DNA of 38,504 bases from NCBI GenBank assembly GCA_017478725.1, contig JAFVDD010000019.1, positions 1 to 38,504 on the forward strand, read 5' to 3'. Under the pieces are notes generated by a model that did no database searches, was not told the origin of the DNA, and saw nothing but the letters and a program-made list of their open reading frames with translations. Of the stretch, positions 16,906-21,799 are shown piece after piece; position 1 is the first letter of the stretch, and each line of letters opens with the position of its first letter. This stretch comes from Paludibacteraceae bacterium (GTDB taxonomy: Bacteria; Bacteroidota; Bacteroidia; Bacteroidales; Paludibacteraceae). The position numbers and the translations under genes are program-made.

Positions 16906-19503
16906 TTATTGCAGTTTCTGACCGGTTACAGTATAGGTTTGCTCACCTCGTAGAATGTAGATTTGACCGTCGCGGAGAACCTTTGTACATTGTACTTGGT
17001 CACTTGGTACATTCTCGATTTCTGTCGAAGTTTCATTCCTTGCCACGATATTCAGTCTGCCCCAAACAGGATGAGCCTTGTAGGCTGTTACGCTGGATTC
17101 GGGTACATAAACAGGAGCAGTCGTAGAAACCTCAAAGAAAGTCTTGTCCTCTACTATAGGCGGAACTACAGCGCCCACCTCCATCTTGTTCAACTTAGAG
17201 CAGAAAGCGAAGGTGTTGTCGCCAATTGAACGAACTGAGGCGGGGATATGAGCCGTCTGCATGTAAGCGCAACCATAAAAAGCCGCGCTGCCTATCTCCT
17301 CTACTCCATCGGGAAGCGTTATGTCCGTCAGTTCATGACAGTTGTAGAACGCCCAGTTGCCGATACGTGTTATCGCATTGCCGGCAAACTCTACGGTAGT
17401 CAAGCTACGACAATTGTCAAATGCACGGTCATCTATCTCGGTAACATACGCAGGAATAGTGATTGCTTTGAGATAATAAGCGTCTGCTGCTATTGCATAG
17501 CCCACAGTGTTCAGCGATGCAGGCAGACGCAGTTCTGTCAGCTTGCGATAGATACTGAATTGTTCCTCTCGGAGCGAAGACACATTCGCTTTCTCCAAAT
17601 CAAGAACACTCAGCGTGCCGGAGGACAACTCAATCTGTGCGAAGCCCGTTGGGGTTAATGTGCCTCCGTTGACTACAACGGTCCCGAGTTTAGTGCTGAA
17701 CCATTGTGAGTATCTCGCTACATAGGTATTGAATGTGCTGGCAGGCGCCTCCACATACCGGAGATTCTGACATTCATATAATGTATAGGCGTCCACTATA
17801 GCATTGCCATTCAAGATACGCAAAGTGTCTAGTTTTGTGCAGCCCAAGAATGCTTCTTGTCCAATCGAATTAACACTCTCAGGGATGGTAAGTTGTGTCA
17901 ATCCCGTGCAATCTTCAAATGCGGCTATCCCAATACTTGTGACACTGTTGGGAATACTGATTTCGGTAATACCTGCTAATCCTAAACATAACGCATAAGG
18001 AATAGCCTCTACTTTTTGACCGAAGGAAAATGAAGTAATGGCATCTAAACCATTAAATATCGAGTATTTATTTCCTTCATTATCGGACGAGATGGTGGCA
18101 TTCTTAGCATTCCATACAACAGAGCTTAATCCTGTGCAACCTTGAAAAGTGGCGCCAGATCCCAAGTCTGTTACTCCTTCCGGTATGATAATGGACGTTA
18201 AAGATGTGCAATTCATAAAAGCTGCCGTTCCGATTTTGGTTACTCCTGCGGGAATAGTTACGCTCGCGAGTGCAGCGCAATCACTGAAAGCAAATTCACC
18301 TATTTCCGTGAGGGTTGTTGGGAGAGTTAGTGAAACAAGGTTTGTGCTTGCTCCGAATGCATCGTATCCTATGGCGGTAATCCCCTCACTAATCATTAGT
18401 GTTTTCATCTCTTTAGCAACCAGACTAAAGGTATAGTTCTCTGTCAATTCGCCGCTACCGATGACAGCTAACATTCCGCTGCTTGGCTGATATACCCACG
18501 AGAGGGCATTGTCTTTGCCGCAAGTACCGCTTAAATCCATAGCAAATTCCGCAGTAAAAGACGTATCTTTCGTCATTTCTATTGCACGCGGGTTAGTGGC
18601 AACACCATCTGACCATTGTACAAAATGGTAACCGGTAGCAGGAGTCGCGGTAAGAGTTACTATCGGTTCATCACAGATGGTTACATCTGCAATATTGCTG
18701 GTAACAGCGCCGTTTTCCGCAGTGGTGGAAAGGGTGTAGGGCAGGGGGTTGTATTTCACTCTGCTATCATTAGGCAGCATCTCTTGGAAACGTGTCAACT
18801 CACCGCAGGGTACATAAATAGAGAGATTAGAACAGCCTCTAAATGCATCGCTTCCGATGGCCGTGATAGTATTTGGCAGTTCAATAGATGTCAGGCTTGT
18901 GCAAGAAGCAAAGAGAGAACTTGCAATAACAGTTAAACTATTGGGAATCGTTACAGAGGTTAAATGAACGCAATTAAAAAAAGCATATCCTCCAATGCTG
19001 GTGACACTATTGGGAATCGTCACAGAAGTCAAATTACTGCAACCAGAAAAAGAACTCCCTCCAATGCTTGTGATGCCATTACCTATCACTACACTTACCA
19101 GGTTGGAACAGTCATAAAATGTATAACCTCCCATGTCAGTGACACTATTGGGAATCGTAATACTGTTCAAAAAGCTACCCGCGAAAGCAAATTCTCCAAT
19201 GCTTGTGACGCTATTAGGGATAATAACAGTTAGTAAGTTTTTACATTCGTGGAACGTATTGCTATTAATGCGAGTTACAGTATATGTTTCGTCATTATAC
19301 TCCACTGTTTCCGGAATGACAGCTTCTGTAATATTCCATCCGGCATTGTATATTCCACTTTCATGCGATTTGTACGTCACAGCGGCTGTTTTGTCATAGT
19401 CGTTTAGAACATAATACAACTCGCCGATTTGAACTGTCTCGGCATTAACAATACCGATTCCGGTCATCAAAGCAAAGAAAAAAGCAAGTAGTTTGTGTTT
19501 CAT
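16906..19503 (-). CDS. BspA-like leucine-rich-repeat surface protein with probable T9SS-type C-terminal tail
   Basis: 865 aa. A signal peptide (cleavage after residue 21) is followed by LRR_5/BspA repeats of about 23 residues (SVTIPNSVTSIGGYAF type) at about 80-228, a bacterial-repeat (Flg_new/InlB-B-like) domain at about 256-322 (TLTATPATGYHFVQWSDG), more LRR blocks at about 365-560 and 650-800, and a final 30 residues ending VLRDGQIYILRGEQTYTVTG. That ending resembles the last strands of Bacteroidota sorting domains, so export through T9SS and surface anchoring are likely. BspA-like proteins bind host or matrix proteins or other bacteria. The gene is less GC-rich than its neighbours and its repeats can recombine. 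An 800-base structured region precedes it. Confidence 0.88.
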   Translation of the reverse strand: MKHKLLAFFFALMTGIGIVNAETVQIGELYYVLNDYDKTAAVTYKSHESGIYNAGWNITEAVIPETVEYNDETYTVTRINSNTFHECKNLLTVIIPNSVTSIGEFAFAGSFLNSITIPNSVTDMGGYTFYDCSNLVSVVIGNGITSIGGSSFSGCSNLTSVTIPNSVTSIGGYAFFNCVHLTSVTIPNSLTVIASSLFASCTSLTSIELPNTITAIGSDAFRGCSNLSIYVPCGELTRFQEMLPNDSRVKYNPLPYTLSTTAENGAVTSNIADVTICDEPIVTLTATPATGYHFVQWSDGVATNPRAIEMTKDTSFTAEFAMDLSGTCGKDNALSWVYQPSSGMLAVIGSGELTENYTFSLVAKEMKTLMISEGITAIGYDAFGASTNLVSLTLPTTLTEIGEFAFSDCAALASVTIPAGVTKIGTAAFMNCTSLTSIIIPEGVTDLGSGATFQGCTGLSSVVWNAKNATISSDNEGNKYSIFNGLDAITSFSFGQKVEAIPYALCLGLAGITEISIPNSVTSIGIAAFEDCTGLTQLTIPESVNSIGQEAFLGCTKLDTLRILNGNAIVDAYTLYECQNLRYVEAPASTFNTYVARYSQWFSTKLGTVVVNGGTLTPTGFAQIELSSGTLSVLDLEKANVSSLREEQFSIYRKLTELRLPASLNTVGYAIAADAYYLKAITIPAYVTEIDDRAFDNCRSLTTVEFAGNAITRIGNWAFYNCHELTDITLPDGVEEIGSAAFYGCAYMQTAHIPASVRSIGDNTFAFCSKLNKMEVGAVVPPIVEDKTFFEVSTTAPVYVPESSVTAYKAHPVWGRLNIVARNETSTEIENVPSDQVQCTKVLRDGQIYILRGEQTYTVTGQKLQ
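16982..17009. repeat. Degenerate 7-bp tandem array near the 3' end of the LRR gene
   Basis: Units TTTGTAC, ATTGTAC, TTGGTCA, CTTGGTA. It encodes the linker VPSDQVQCTKV just before the C-terminal tail. Confidence 0.5.
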
Positions 19504-19609
19504 ACGTGTTTCCCTAAATTCGTGTCGGGCGCAACTTTTAGATGGTTAATATTGTTGTTGATGTTATAGACAGATGGATTTCCTGATTACTGGTTGCCGG
19601 ATTGCCGGG

Positions 19610-19648
19610 TTAGTAATACACAAAATTAAAAGCGTGAATGTTATCCAC
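19610..19648 (-). CDS. Possible 12-codon leader ORF (uORF3)
   Basis: A GTG at 19648 lies 7 bases after AGGAG (19660-19656), a clean Shine-Dalgarno site of a kind not usual in Bacteroidota. It encodes VDNIHAFNFVYY (first residue Met if translated), rich in aromatic residues, and spans the terminator-like hairpin. It could be an attenuation peptide; equally it may be chance. Confidence 0.25.
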   Translation of the reverse strand: MDNIHAFNFVYY

Positions 19649-19652
19649 GCTT
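19630..19652 (-). terminator. Terminator-like hairpin inside the LRR gene leader
   Basis: A 7-bp stem (19630-19636 with 19646-19652) with a 9-base loop, followed on the minus strand by TTTTAATTTTG. Its 3'-strand-side arm can pair instead with 19838-19843, so formation of the hairpin and of the outer long-range helix are mutually exclusive. Confidence 0.55.
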
Positions 19653-19764
19653 ATTCTCCTTTGTATGGTTCTGGTAAACCTTGTATGCAAGAATAAACAA
19701 TAACGTCCACGCCCGATATGTTTAACCCTCCCGCCCTGTGAAGGGCGCGAACGGATATTAACAT
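19651..19764 (-). CDS. Possible 37-aa leader ORF (uORF2)
   Basis: ATG at 19764 to TAA at 19653-19651, beginning MLISVRALHRAGG and ending GLPEPYKGE. Its stop is 2 bases before the uORF3 start codon. It lies within the paired arms of the structured region, so it may be an artefact of that RNA. No similarity is recognised. Confidence 0.25.
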   Translation of the reverse strand: MLISVRALHRAGGLNISGVDVIVYSCIQGLPEPYKGE

Positions 19765-19842
19765 ACCCACGAGGACGCTTATTGCACTATCTTGTTTCGG
19801 GCATACAAAAATTTACCAGATTTTACAAAGCCAAAACAAGCG

Positions 19843-19944
19843 TCAATAAACGCCTTTTATGTCATGCAATGTCTCACTTTGTGAGAGTCGGCAGAGTGCT
19901 ACTTGTGGTAGTTTACCCGCCCTCTTGCCCACGGCGTGAATCAT
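19843..19944 (-). CDS. Possible 33-aa ORF directly after the promoter (uORF1)
   Basis: ATG at 19944 only 8 bases after the -7 element, so a message would be nearly leaderless; TGA at 19845-19843. It begins MIHAVGKRAGKLP and ends HDIKGVY. Its frame continues the open frame of the gene fragment upstream (19985-20184), so it may be a relic of that gene's 3' end. Confidence 0.3.
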   Translation of the reverse strand: MIHAVGKRAGKLPQVALCRLSQSETLHDIKGVY

Positions 19945-19952
19945 TACGGCTG

Positions 19953-19984
19953 CAAAGGTACTACTTTTTTTTGATATGGGCAAA
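19953..19984 (-). promoter_or_regulatory. Promoter upstream of the LRR gene leader
   Basis: TTTG (19984-19981), 20 bases, TACCTTTG (19960-19953): a full consensus match. The predicted start near 19946 is about 440 bases before the LRR start codon. Confidence 0.75.
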
Positions 19985-20184
19985 AAAAATCTGCACTTTT
20001 TTACAATGCAGATTAGTTTGTCCTGTTTCAGCAGTTGAAGCAGCTCAATGACACCTTTTATGTCACCGCTTTTTACGCTCAGGTACTTAGCCGCAAAGAG
20101 TTGCTCATTCTCATTCAGTGTAGAATAGCGTGCGACATCTTCGTAGGCACTTCGTAGGCGCGTTGAGAGCGCATCGGAAGCATC
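19985..20184 (-). pseudogene. Fragment of an unidentified protein gene
   Basis: One minus-strand frame from 20184 reads like protein for about 55 codons (SDALSTRLRSAYEDVARY, then LNENEQLFAAKYLS, DIKGVIELLQLLKQ). A TAG lies immediately before it (20187-20185), there is no start codon in the open part, and there is no stop where the protein-like stretch ends, although TAA is available one frame away. A terminator hairpin follows at 19989-20016. I take it as the remains of a small gene that has lost its start and its frame near the 3' end. The family is unknown. Confidence 0.5.
19989..20016 (-). terminator. Intrinsic terminator after the gene fragment
   Basis: AATCTGCA/TGCAGATT, an 8-bp perfect stem with a T-run following on the minus strand. 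It overlaps the -33 side of the next promoter, so the structured region is insulated from upstream transcription. Confidence 0.65.
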
Positions 20185-20248
20185 CTAGACTTTATACTTT
20201 TCAAACACCTTTAAGCAACTGTATTTCAGTGCTTTACAACACATACAA

Positions 20249-20279
20249 AAACTGCCGAAAATCATGTTTTCGGCAGTTT
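20249..20279 (-). terminator. Intrinsic terminator of the acetyl-CoA hydrolase/transferase gene
   Basis: A perfect 13-bp stem (20249-20261 with 20267-20279) with a 5-base loop and TTTTTG following on the minus strand, 20 bases after the stop codon. Confidence 0.85.
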
Positions 20280-20299
20280 CATTTACTGTTTTTTTCTTA

Positions 20300-21799
20300 T
20301 TACCGCAAGTAGTTCTCCCACTTGGTATTGCGCATGTCGCCGGACTTGAGGAACTCCTCATGCATAGCGAACGCGAGCGAGAGGTTGTGCTGCGTCTGGC
20401 CGTGCTTGGCGTACTTGAGGTAATCGCGCAGCATCTCGCGGTATTCCGGCGCGACACAGTTGTTGATCACTTCCTCGGCACGCTGACGCGGGCTCTTGCC
20501 ACGCAGATCGGCTACGCCCTGCTCGGTCACAATAACCTTGACGGAGTGCTCGGAATGGTCGAGGTGGGTCACCATCGGAACGATCGATGAAATCGCACCA
20601 TTCTTGGCCGTCGAAGCGGTCGTAAAGATACTAAGGTACGCATTGCGCGCGAAATCGCCGCTGCCGCCGATACCGTTCATCATCTTGGTGCCCGTGACGT
20701 GCGTGGAGTTGATGTTGCCATAGATATCGGCCTCGAGGGCGGTATTGATGGCAATGAGTCCGAGTCGGCGGATGATTTCCGGGTTGTTGGAGGTCTCCTG
20801 CGGACGGAGCAGCATCTTGTCGTGGTAGAAATCGAGGTTAGCGAGCACCTCTGCCATCTTGCTCTCCACAAGCCGCAGCGAGCAACCGCTGGCGAACTTG
20901 CAGTGACCCTCTTTGATGAGGTCCACCACGGAATCCTGCACTACCTCCGAGTACATCTCAAACGGCGGGATATGCGGGTTCTTGCCCAGTTCGCCGAGAA
21001 CGGCGTTGGCTACGTTGCCCACACCCGACTGGATGGGAAGGAAAGTGCTTGGGATACGTCCGGCTTTCATCTCCGCCTCCAGGAAGAGGGCTACATTCTC
21101 GCCAATCTTGGCGGTAGTAGCATCTACTGGTGTGAAGGGTGCAATTTCGTTCGGACGGTTGGTCTTCACAACGGCAGCAATCTTAGCGGGATCGACCTTC
21201 AGATGGTCGGAGCCGCAGCGGTCGGAGGGTTTATAGATAGGTATCTCCTTGCGGTACGGCGGGTCGAGAGGCTCATAGAGGTCGTGCATACCGCGCATGG
21301 TAGCAGGGAACATCTCGTTGAGCTCGACGATAATCTTATCCGCCATGCGGCAGATAGTGGGCATGATACCTACTCCGGCAGCCGGCACGATGATACCGTC
21401 CTCACCTACATACGAAGCCTCGATGATGGCGAACTTAGGTTTGGGCAGAAAGCCGTAACGGAGGTCTTGCGCCATGTGGCTCAAGTGCATGTCGAAATAG
21501 TGCGTTCCCTCGGCGTTGATCTCCTCGCGCATCGACTTGTTCGACTGATAGGGCGTACGGAACTCCACGGCGTGTGCACGTGCCAAGGCACCATCGCAGC
21601 TGTCTCCCATAGAGGCGCCTGTCTCCAGTCCTACGCGGAAAGGTTTGCCCTCGGCGTGCAGACGCTCGGCGCGCTGCGCGAGTGCGAAAGGAACGGCCTT
21701 GGGCACACCGGTGGCGGTAAAACCACCCATGCCCAAGACGTCACCATGTTGGATCAATTCGGCCGCTTCTTCAGCGGACATAAATGGAAGCATATGCAA
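20300..21799 (-). CDS. Acetyl-CoA hydrolase / succinyl-CoA:acetate CoA-transferase family protein
   Basis: A 499-aa cytoplasmic class I CoA-transferase of the Cat1/AarC family. Members move CoA between acetate, succinate or propionate, or hydrolyse acetyl-CoA. In fermenting Bacteroidales the likely role is acetate or propionate formation (inference). Visible marks are GGFTATGVPKAVP near the N-terminus, FEMYSEVVQDS with Glu285 as the probable catalytic residue, INTALEADIYGNINSTHV, and the GIGGSGDFARNAY loop at about 376-388. Length fits. It lies 135 bases downstream of the aldolase gene with no consensus promoter between, and ends in a strong terminator, so the two may share a transcript. Confidence 0.92.
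   Translation of the reverse strand: MHMLPFMSAEEAAELIQHGDVLGMGGFTATGVPKAVPFALAQRAERLHAEGKPFRVGLETGASMGDSCDGALARAHAVEFRTPYQSNKSMREEINAEGTHYFDMHLSHMAQDLRYGFLPKPKFAIIEASYVGEDGIIVPAAGVGIMPTICRMADKIIVELNEMFPATMRGMHDLYEPLDPPYRKEIPIYKPSDRCGSDHLKVDPAKIAAVVKTNRPNEIAPFTPVDATTAKIGENVALFLEAEMKAGRIPSTFLPIQSGVGNVANAVLGELGKNPHIPPFEMYSEVVQDSVVDLIKEGHCKFASGCSLRLVESKMAEVLANLDFYHDKMLLRPQETSNNPEIIRRLGLIAINTALEADIYGNINSTHVTGTKMMNGIGGSGDFARNAYLSIFTTASTAKNGAISSIVPMVTHLDHSEHSVKVIVTEQGVADLRGKSPRQRAEEVINNCVAPEYREMLRDYLKYAKHGQTQHNLSLAFAMHEEFLKSGDMRNTKWENYLR

Follow-up and report, generated by a model that had tools for sequence, protein, structure and literature searches.

A family of structured RNAs upstream of surface and accessory genes in Bacteroidota, probably acting as transcription attenuators

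What is the structured RNA that lies between a promoter and a BspA-like gene in this Paludibacteraceae genome, and could it control that gene? The window (the whole stretch of DNA analysed, 38,504 nt) was first described in a first-pass annotation that read the sequence alone, and the individual elements it named were found at the places it gave on the minus strand. The promoter is as it had described, with TACCTTTG at 19960-19953 behind the TTTTTTTTG run, and the 9-bp pairing (TCTGGTAAA, 19820-19812, with TTTACCAGA, 19678-19670), the 8-bp pairing of 19801-19808 with 19681-19688 and the terminator-like hairpin GCGTG...CACGC-TTTTAATTTT are likewise present. A stretch of 351 nt folded at -137.2 kcal/mol; 100 dinucleotide shuffles averaged -90.75 (sd 5.27), and none was as low (z-score -8.81). 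The locus is arranged as follows.

19953 to 19989, minus strand: promoter, with TTTTTTTTG as the -33 region and TACCTTTG as the -7 type box; the start site would lie near 19946
19864 to 19946, minus strand: 5' stretch of the presumed transcript, mostly unconserved by copy comparison
About 19622 to 19863, minus strand: conserved element, one member of a structured-RNA family
16906 to 19503, minus strand: downstream gene (ORF), encoding a BspA-type leucine-rich-repeat protein of 865 aa (PF13306, E 1.4e-147)

The first 85 nt or so after the presumed start site are thus mostly unconserved among copies. A terminator-like hairpin at about 20245-20276 closes the upstream acetyl-CoA hydrolase/transferase gene (20300-21799; Pfam), so the transcript of the window RNA should begin at its own promoter. 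The U-tract of the window copy is interrupted (TTTTAATTTT) and its local terminator arm is 5 bp long; TAATTTTG within this tract fits the promoter motif, so the BspA-type gene may also have a promoter of its own.

The suggestion that the RNA belongs to no recognised class was borne out by Rfam 15, which at gathering score gave no matches in the window and, across 40 further loci (35 distinct places), none at the RNA, with one rteR and two tRNA matches elsewhere in those loci. When the threshold was lowered for 19400-20300, eight sub-threshold matches appeared, all to unrelated families. The family therefore has no Rfam 15 counterpart in the window and the 40 further loci.

Copies of the RNA are nevertheless numerous. 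BLAST of the own genome found two further copies, one at 74% identity and one in pieces, and BLAST of relatives gave matches in 79 of 200 genomes (own genome counted), all of the same genus. Covariance models reached further. R1, built from 30 copies, recovered 12 own-genome copies at E 1.9e-10 or better; at E 0.001 it matched 218 of the 300 genomes and 25 of the 33 genera in a family sample, which is an upper view with an untrusted weak end. R1 scores about 30-52 bits on the antisense of its own loci, so that matches in this range were not trusted alone, and 40 genomes had been chosen beforehand for their R1 matches in the family sample, so that their 40/40 is no evidence of spread. R2, built from 34 diverse copies, found at least 20 own-genome copies at E 2.5e-7 or better, all 41 genomes of a genus sample (1 to 27 copies each), 79 of 247 genomes and 61 of 173 genera in an order sample, and 11 of 247 genomes in a phylum sample. 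With R3, built from 25 short forms, matches were obtained in 59 of 247 genomes (38 of 136 genera) of a class sample and in 40 of 296 genomes (24 of 140 genera) of a phylum sample. R3 also finds long forms outside its training set (69.7 bits for the window copy), indicating that long and short forms are one family, while the 256 of 296 phylum genomes with no R3 match indicate that it is not a model that matches any hairpin. Among the matching stretches listed (80 of 117), most came from rumen and gut MAGs labelled Paludibacteraceae or Bacteroidales, and a few were labelled Bacteroides, Phocaeicola, Muribaculaceae or Lentimicrobiaceae.

A phage or plasmid origin was considered for the window copy and set aside, as this copy had no match in phage or plasmid collections. 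The short form L115 had no match in phages, nor did one exact pattern of the RNA match viral contigs; another short form matched four plasmid records (Bacteroides, Phocaeicola and Parabacteroides). Two copies look as if modules had been swapped between them: L012 and L020 have the same lower-stem sequence on both arms with differing apical domains. The 5' half of the L034 RNA seems to have been replaced, the sequence ahead of its apical domain differing from that of other copies.

Compensatory changes had been named as a check on the RNA, and its helices do covary in alignments made with no structural guidance. The main alignment (A4) comprised 41 diverse copies, was made with MAFFT free of structure and was then scanned for covarying helices; P4 and P3 (columns 59-77 with 300-317) were the strongest, followed by P6, P1 and PB. 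For the resulting structure of 66 pairs, crossing helices included, 91.2% of the cells were paired, compared with 78.1% in shuffles and 38-49% when slid, and changes on both sides occurred at 46 pairs (34.3 in shuffles) and in 423 cells (141 in shuffles). None of 500 shuffles was as high on any measure. Eleven helices each lay above 500 block permutations of their 3' strand, with a large excess for P3, P4 and PB and one of a few per cent for P1, P2, P5, P7, P8 and PX; since shuffling leaves shared ancestry in, these latter six are weaker evidence than the former three. In the short-form set (A7; 25 sequences, ten from the own genome and family and 15 from outside the family), P3, P4, P5 and P7 each exceeded 1000 permutations. 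The helices of the window copy, all on the minus strand, are these.

19858 to 19863: GACATA box, the 5' edge of the conserved element, occurring with the T-tract in 40 of 49 copies
19845 to 19854: segment 1, the 5' strand of P1 (GGCGTTTATT); P1 is 94.9% paired
19831 to 19840: 5' strand of P2 (CTTGTTTTGG), partner 19791-19800; 82.3% paired, 6 of 10 pairs changed on both sides
19825 to 19830: 5' strand of P4, partner 19659-19664; 95.1% paired, 6 of 6 pairs changed on both sides
19814 to 19820: 5' strand of P3 (TCTGGTA), partner 19670-19676, in loop-loop or long-hairpin pairing; 97.9% paired against 76.4% in block permutations
19801 to 19804: 5' strand of PB, partner 19685-19688; 85.0% paired against 43.6% permuted
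19791 to 19800: 3' strand of P2 (CCGAAACAAG), from covariation in the MAFFT alignment
19773 to 19783: segment 2 (AATAAGCGTC and neighbour), at once the 3' strand of P1 and the 5' strand of P7, from covariation
19761 to 19766: 5' strand of P8, the apical hairpin, partner 19716-19721; 93.1% paired
19702 to 19712: segment 3, in which the 5' strand of P5 (GCGTGGA, 19706-19712) overlaps the 3' strand of P7 (GGACGTT, 19702-19708), from covariation
19689 to 19700: 5' strand of P6, partner 19647-19658; 87.1% paired, 9 of 12 pairs changed on both sides
19670 to 19676: 3' strand of P3 (TACCAGA), from covariation in the MAFFT alignment
19659 to 19664: 3' strand of P4, from covariation in the MAFFT alignment
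19647 to 19658: 3' strand of P6, whose end doubles as the 5' arm of the local terminator hairpin, from sequence and covariation
19622 to 19637: segment 4 (TCACGC) and T-rich tract, the 3' arm of the terminator; P5 is 97.2% paired

The loop of hairpin P2 contains the 5' strands of P3 and P4, and that of hairpin P6 contains their partners, which makes P3 and P4 a loop-loop interaction in that fold; within an alternative long hairpin they form an ordinary stem. RNAalifold returned this single long hairpin, which was at first taken as the structure; the wider alignment made it one of two folds. The nested arms of the first-pass annotation fared in the same way: the long hairpin they describe is conserved, but it is just one of two conserved folds. 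The GACATA end can also pair with the stretch after the T-tract: 23 of 40 copies reach 5 or 6 paired bases out of 6, as do 16% of control registers, and part of this pairing is G-U, which favours RNA.

A transcriptional switch had been proposed on the grounds that the outermost ACGCTT/AAGCGT helix (19838-19843 with 19647-19652) competes with the terminator. That pairing is present, although it is not the alternation that covaries; what stands of the proposal is that the terminator has a covarying partner helix with which it cannot coexist, the conserved competitors being the pairings of segments 2:3 and 3:4. Segment 3 (GCGTGG) pairs either with segment 4 (CCACGC before the U-tract), forming the terminator helix P5, or with segment 2, forming the antiterminator helix P7. 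The two helices have segment 3 in common and so exclude each other, and both covary, with P5 97.2% and P7 84.3% paired in A4 and both-side changes in 5 of 7 pairs of each. Among the 25 short forms, which include other families and classes, the values were 96.0% and 95.5%, and in alignment A5 three P7 pairs were standard in all 34 sequences. Segments 2, 3 and 4 each contain one of the A4 columns 127/261/345, where the 41 sequences read CGC (19), UGC (9), UAU (7), CG-gap (5) or GGC (1); in seven of them all three columns shift in step (UAU versus CGC). Segment 2 pairs with segment 1 as well (P1, 94.9%), so that the pairings follow the 1:2, 2:3, 3:4 scheme of classical attenuators. CG[CT] followed by a T-tract was observed in 107 of 120 copies, and the parts of an intrinsic-terminator attenuator are in place, namely a GC-rich stem with U-tract between promoter and gene and a conserved helix that excludes the terminator stem.

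The two-state picture is complicated by part of the family, in which the local terminator hairpin could form independently of segment 3. The local terminator helix is merely 69.8% paired, and together with P7 it lay above shuffles on four of five measures, with no excess of further pair types (110 of 500 shuffles as high). The nested minimum-energy fold holds P7 in 36 of the 41 sequences and P5 in two, and the nested energy model, in which the loop-loop energy is excluded, favours the 2:3 fold by a median of 8.1 kcal/mol and the fold with 1:2 and 3:4 in 4 of 41 sequences. Energy alone would consequently label most copies as 'on'.

The position of the copies relative to genes was surveyed in three locus sets. 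The nearest downstream ORF was co-directional in 72 of 74 copies of the first set, 42 of 44 of the second and 28 of 29 of the third, while upstream ORFs were co-directional or opposed in ratios of 46 to 25, 27 to 18 and 8 to 21, respectively. The first set retained 77 of 109 matches (30 antisense matches, L025, which duplicates the L070 place, and the second L085 match were dropped), three of them with no scorable downstream ORF; most of its copies belong to a single genus and cannot be counted as independent events. The third comprised 29 of 30 loci (L308, from the own genome, was dropped), nine of which repeat the second set. With at least 20 own-genome copies and this orientation, the proposal of a cis-acting leader that recurs before surface-protein genes gained support.

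Promoter placement was counted over 120 copies, 115 of them with a co-directional downstream ORF (L245 and L280 were omitted; in L280 the nearest following gene is on the opposite strand and was scored as opposed in the second set). Of the 115 copies, 78 have the motif TAnnTTTG upstream of the RNA (8.7 expected) and 13 have it between terminator and ATG (8.0 expected); the gap from terminator to ATG has a median of 71 nt and is 60 nt or less in 48 of 115. Across the 73 of 77 copies with enough sequence (four with less than 400 nt upstream were excluded), those with a promoter motif nearby had 21 co-directional and 22 opposed upstream genes and two with none, and those with no motif nearby had co-directional upstream genes by 25 to 3. 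By eye, many upstream genes of the promoterless copies resemble toxin-antitoxin or other accessory genes, and in L018, L028, L061, L063, L067 and L079 repeated short palindromes with GTAAAA-type tails lie between the accessory gene and the RNA.

Covariation, the strand common to 2:3 and 3:4, gene orientation and promoter placement together lead us to regard the RNA as probably a cis-acting transcription attenuator of surface and accessory genes, belonging to a family found across Bacteroidota. Transcription would start at the promoter upstream of the RNA or, for other copies, arrive from a co-directional upstream gene. In the nascent RNA, pairings 1:2 (P1), 2:3 (P7) and 3:4 (P5) would compete, 3:4 with the U-tract acting as an intrinsic terminator. 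Formation of 1:2 would leave segment 3 free for segment 4, and transcription would stop before the gene; in this off state the hairpins P2 (between segments 1 and 2) and P6 (between 3 and 4) would be joined through their loops by P3, P4 and PB. Were segment 2 to pair with segment 3 instead, the long hairpin would form, the terminator would not, and the gene would be transcribed. We infer that cells do terminate transcription here and in a regulated way, with a protein or small ligand on the paired-loop domain picking the fold.

Other readings account for parts of these data. A promoter, a terminator-like end and the strong fold of the window RNA would equally suit an independent trans-acting sRNA merely located before the gene, and the gap to the gene exceeds 100 nt in a good part of the copies; yet the next gene is co-directional in 72/74 and 42/44 cases, there is little trace of a promoter between terminator and gene, promoterless copies come after co-directional genes by 25 to 3, and the alternative helices around the terminator covary, so that we consider this quite unlikely. 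The first-pass option of a separate RNA of about 325 nt accordingly loses ground to its cis alternative, the downstream genes being nearly always co-directional and mostly lacking a promoter motif of their own. Processive-antitermination leaders such as EAR, put and those of capsule loci are a further precedent, accessory surface genes being a setting in which such factors occur. A large leader with conserved tertiary-type pairing before such genes might modify RNA polymerase, or recruit a NusG-type factor, and so carry transcription past terminators; however, a conserved built-in terminator with an exclusive partner helix suffices for simple attenuation, and we hold this reading to be unlikely.

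A short ORF that ends in segment 1 could also, when translated, block 1:2 and permit 2:3. In the window an ATG frame (from 19941) terminates in segment 1, similar frames are seen by eye in some copies, and ATG frames ending near segment 1 occur in 21 of 47 copies against 14.8 shuffled (14 of 300 shuffles as high). The excess vanishes when any start codon is allowed (30/47 against 29.2 expected), though, 12 of 47 copies lack any ATG from the promoter box to segment 1, and the stretch before segment 1 can be just 33 nt. A leader peptide is therefore not general across the family, for which this explanation is very improbable, and may serve a subset. A miniature inverted-repeat mobile element, finally, would be palindromic, dispersed and present in many copies as this RNA is, and its ends (GACATA ... 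TATGTC), pairable in many copies, and its arms would account for the pairing. The first-pass annotation had itself raised this as one of the cases that would refute its reading. It fits poorly with the fixed position and orientation before genes (72/74, 42/44 and 28/29 co-directional), with the covariation of internal helices, crossing ones among them, and with the G-U pairs in part of the end pairing, which favour RNA; we find it hardly credible.

If the family is indeed an attenuator, the genes it serves are of several kinds. The expected link to BspA-like genes held for the window, whose gene matches PF13306, but the family is not confined to them: the BspA LRR model was matched by 18 of 94 scanned downstream proteins. 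The scan took in 94 of the 113 downstream proteins of the second locus set, with 25 of 48 families listed. A crude signal-peptide rule was passed by 45 of 72 downstream proteins. Other products include a DNA methylase scored as type III, a helicase with a PLD-like domain, an Hsp70-like protein, a protein kinase and a DUF1016 nuclease. In one distant group (L300, L302, L306, L309, L310, L313, L315, L316, L319, L321 and L326), a TonB receptor plug domain was found in all ten downstream genes scanned, ten of the eleven; here a small divergent gene adjoins the RNA, several of these reading by eye like helix-turn-helix regulators, and the served gene is co-directional. The downstream genes are too diverse to point to a ligand.

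On a Bacteroides ovatus plasmid, a copy precedes a dihydrofolate-reductase-family gene. In L290, L295 (NZ_CP081918.1) and L296 (NZ_OY725747.1), the short form has a DNA primase/helicase region on one side, RteC being close by, and a gene of this family on the other; the rteR sRNA match falls elsewhere in L290. By eye, similar small genes come after the copies of L087, L092 and L104, with products that start with EELQSRREFFK, a lysine-rich stretch, and in two cases are rich in cysteine, and a gene with a radical-SAM-like CxxxCxxC motif comes after that of L086.

Bacteroidota rank among the major inhabitants of animal guts, and the way in which they select from large surface-protein repertoires is an unsolved problem. 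If the reading is right, a common control layer would stand before BspA-like, lipoprotein, SusC-like and some defence genes, one missed by annotation because Rfam 15 did not recognise the RNA here. Were the signal a metabolite, the family would represent a widely distributed class of orphan riboswitches. The strand common to two covarying helices offers a direct handle for single- and double-mutant tests.

Several structured RNAs of the same phylum have been described for Rfam, including 6S-flavo, Bacteroidales-1, Bacteroides-1, Bacteroid-trp, Flavo-1 and Pedo-repair, as listed in PMC2864571. All of these were below gathering score in the window and at the RNA in the 40 loci. Passages of PMC8040213 describe palindromic Bacteroidetes candidates with terminators, one of which may be a fragment of the present RNA. 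In the texts of PMC11109978, PMC8632094 and PMC2965389, none of the taxon or gene words sought occurs.

Compared with known systems, the family is similar to EAR/epsC and capsule-locus antitermination leaders in being a large leader RNA ahead of accessory surface loci. It differs in that those leaders are not known to carry a conserved terminator of their own, and the Rfam search, epsC among its families, gave no match in the window or, across the 40 further loci, at the RNA. With transcription-terminating riboswitches it shares a leader position and a crossing-helix fold fused to a terminator and its exclusive partner helix; it differs in that its downstream genes share no evident pathway. 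Attenuators of the trp-operon type have four segments ahead of the gene, pairing as 1:2, 2:3 (antiterminator) and 3:4 (terminator). Unlike these, the family has no general leader peptide, places two paired-loop hairpins between its segments and serves surface and accessory genes, while it resembles them in the four-segment 1:2, 2:3 and 3:4 alternatives that precede a gene.
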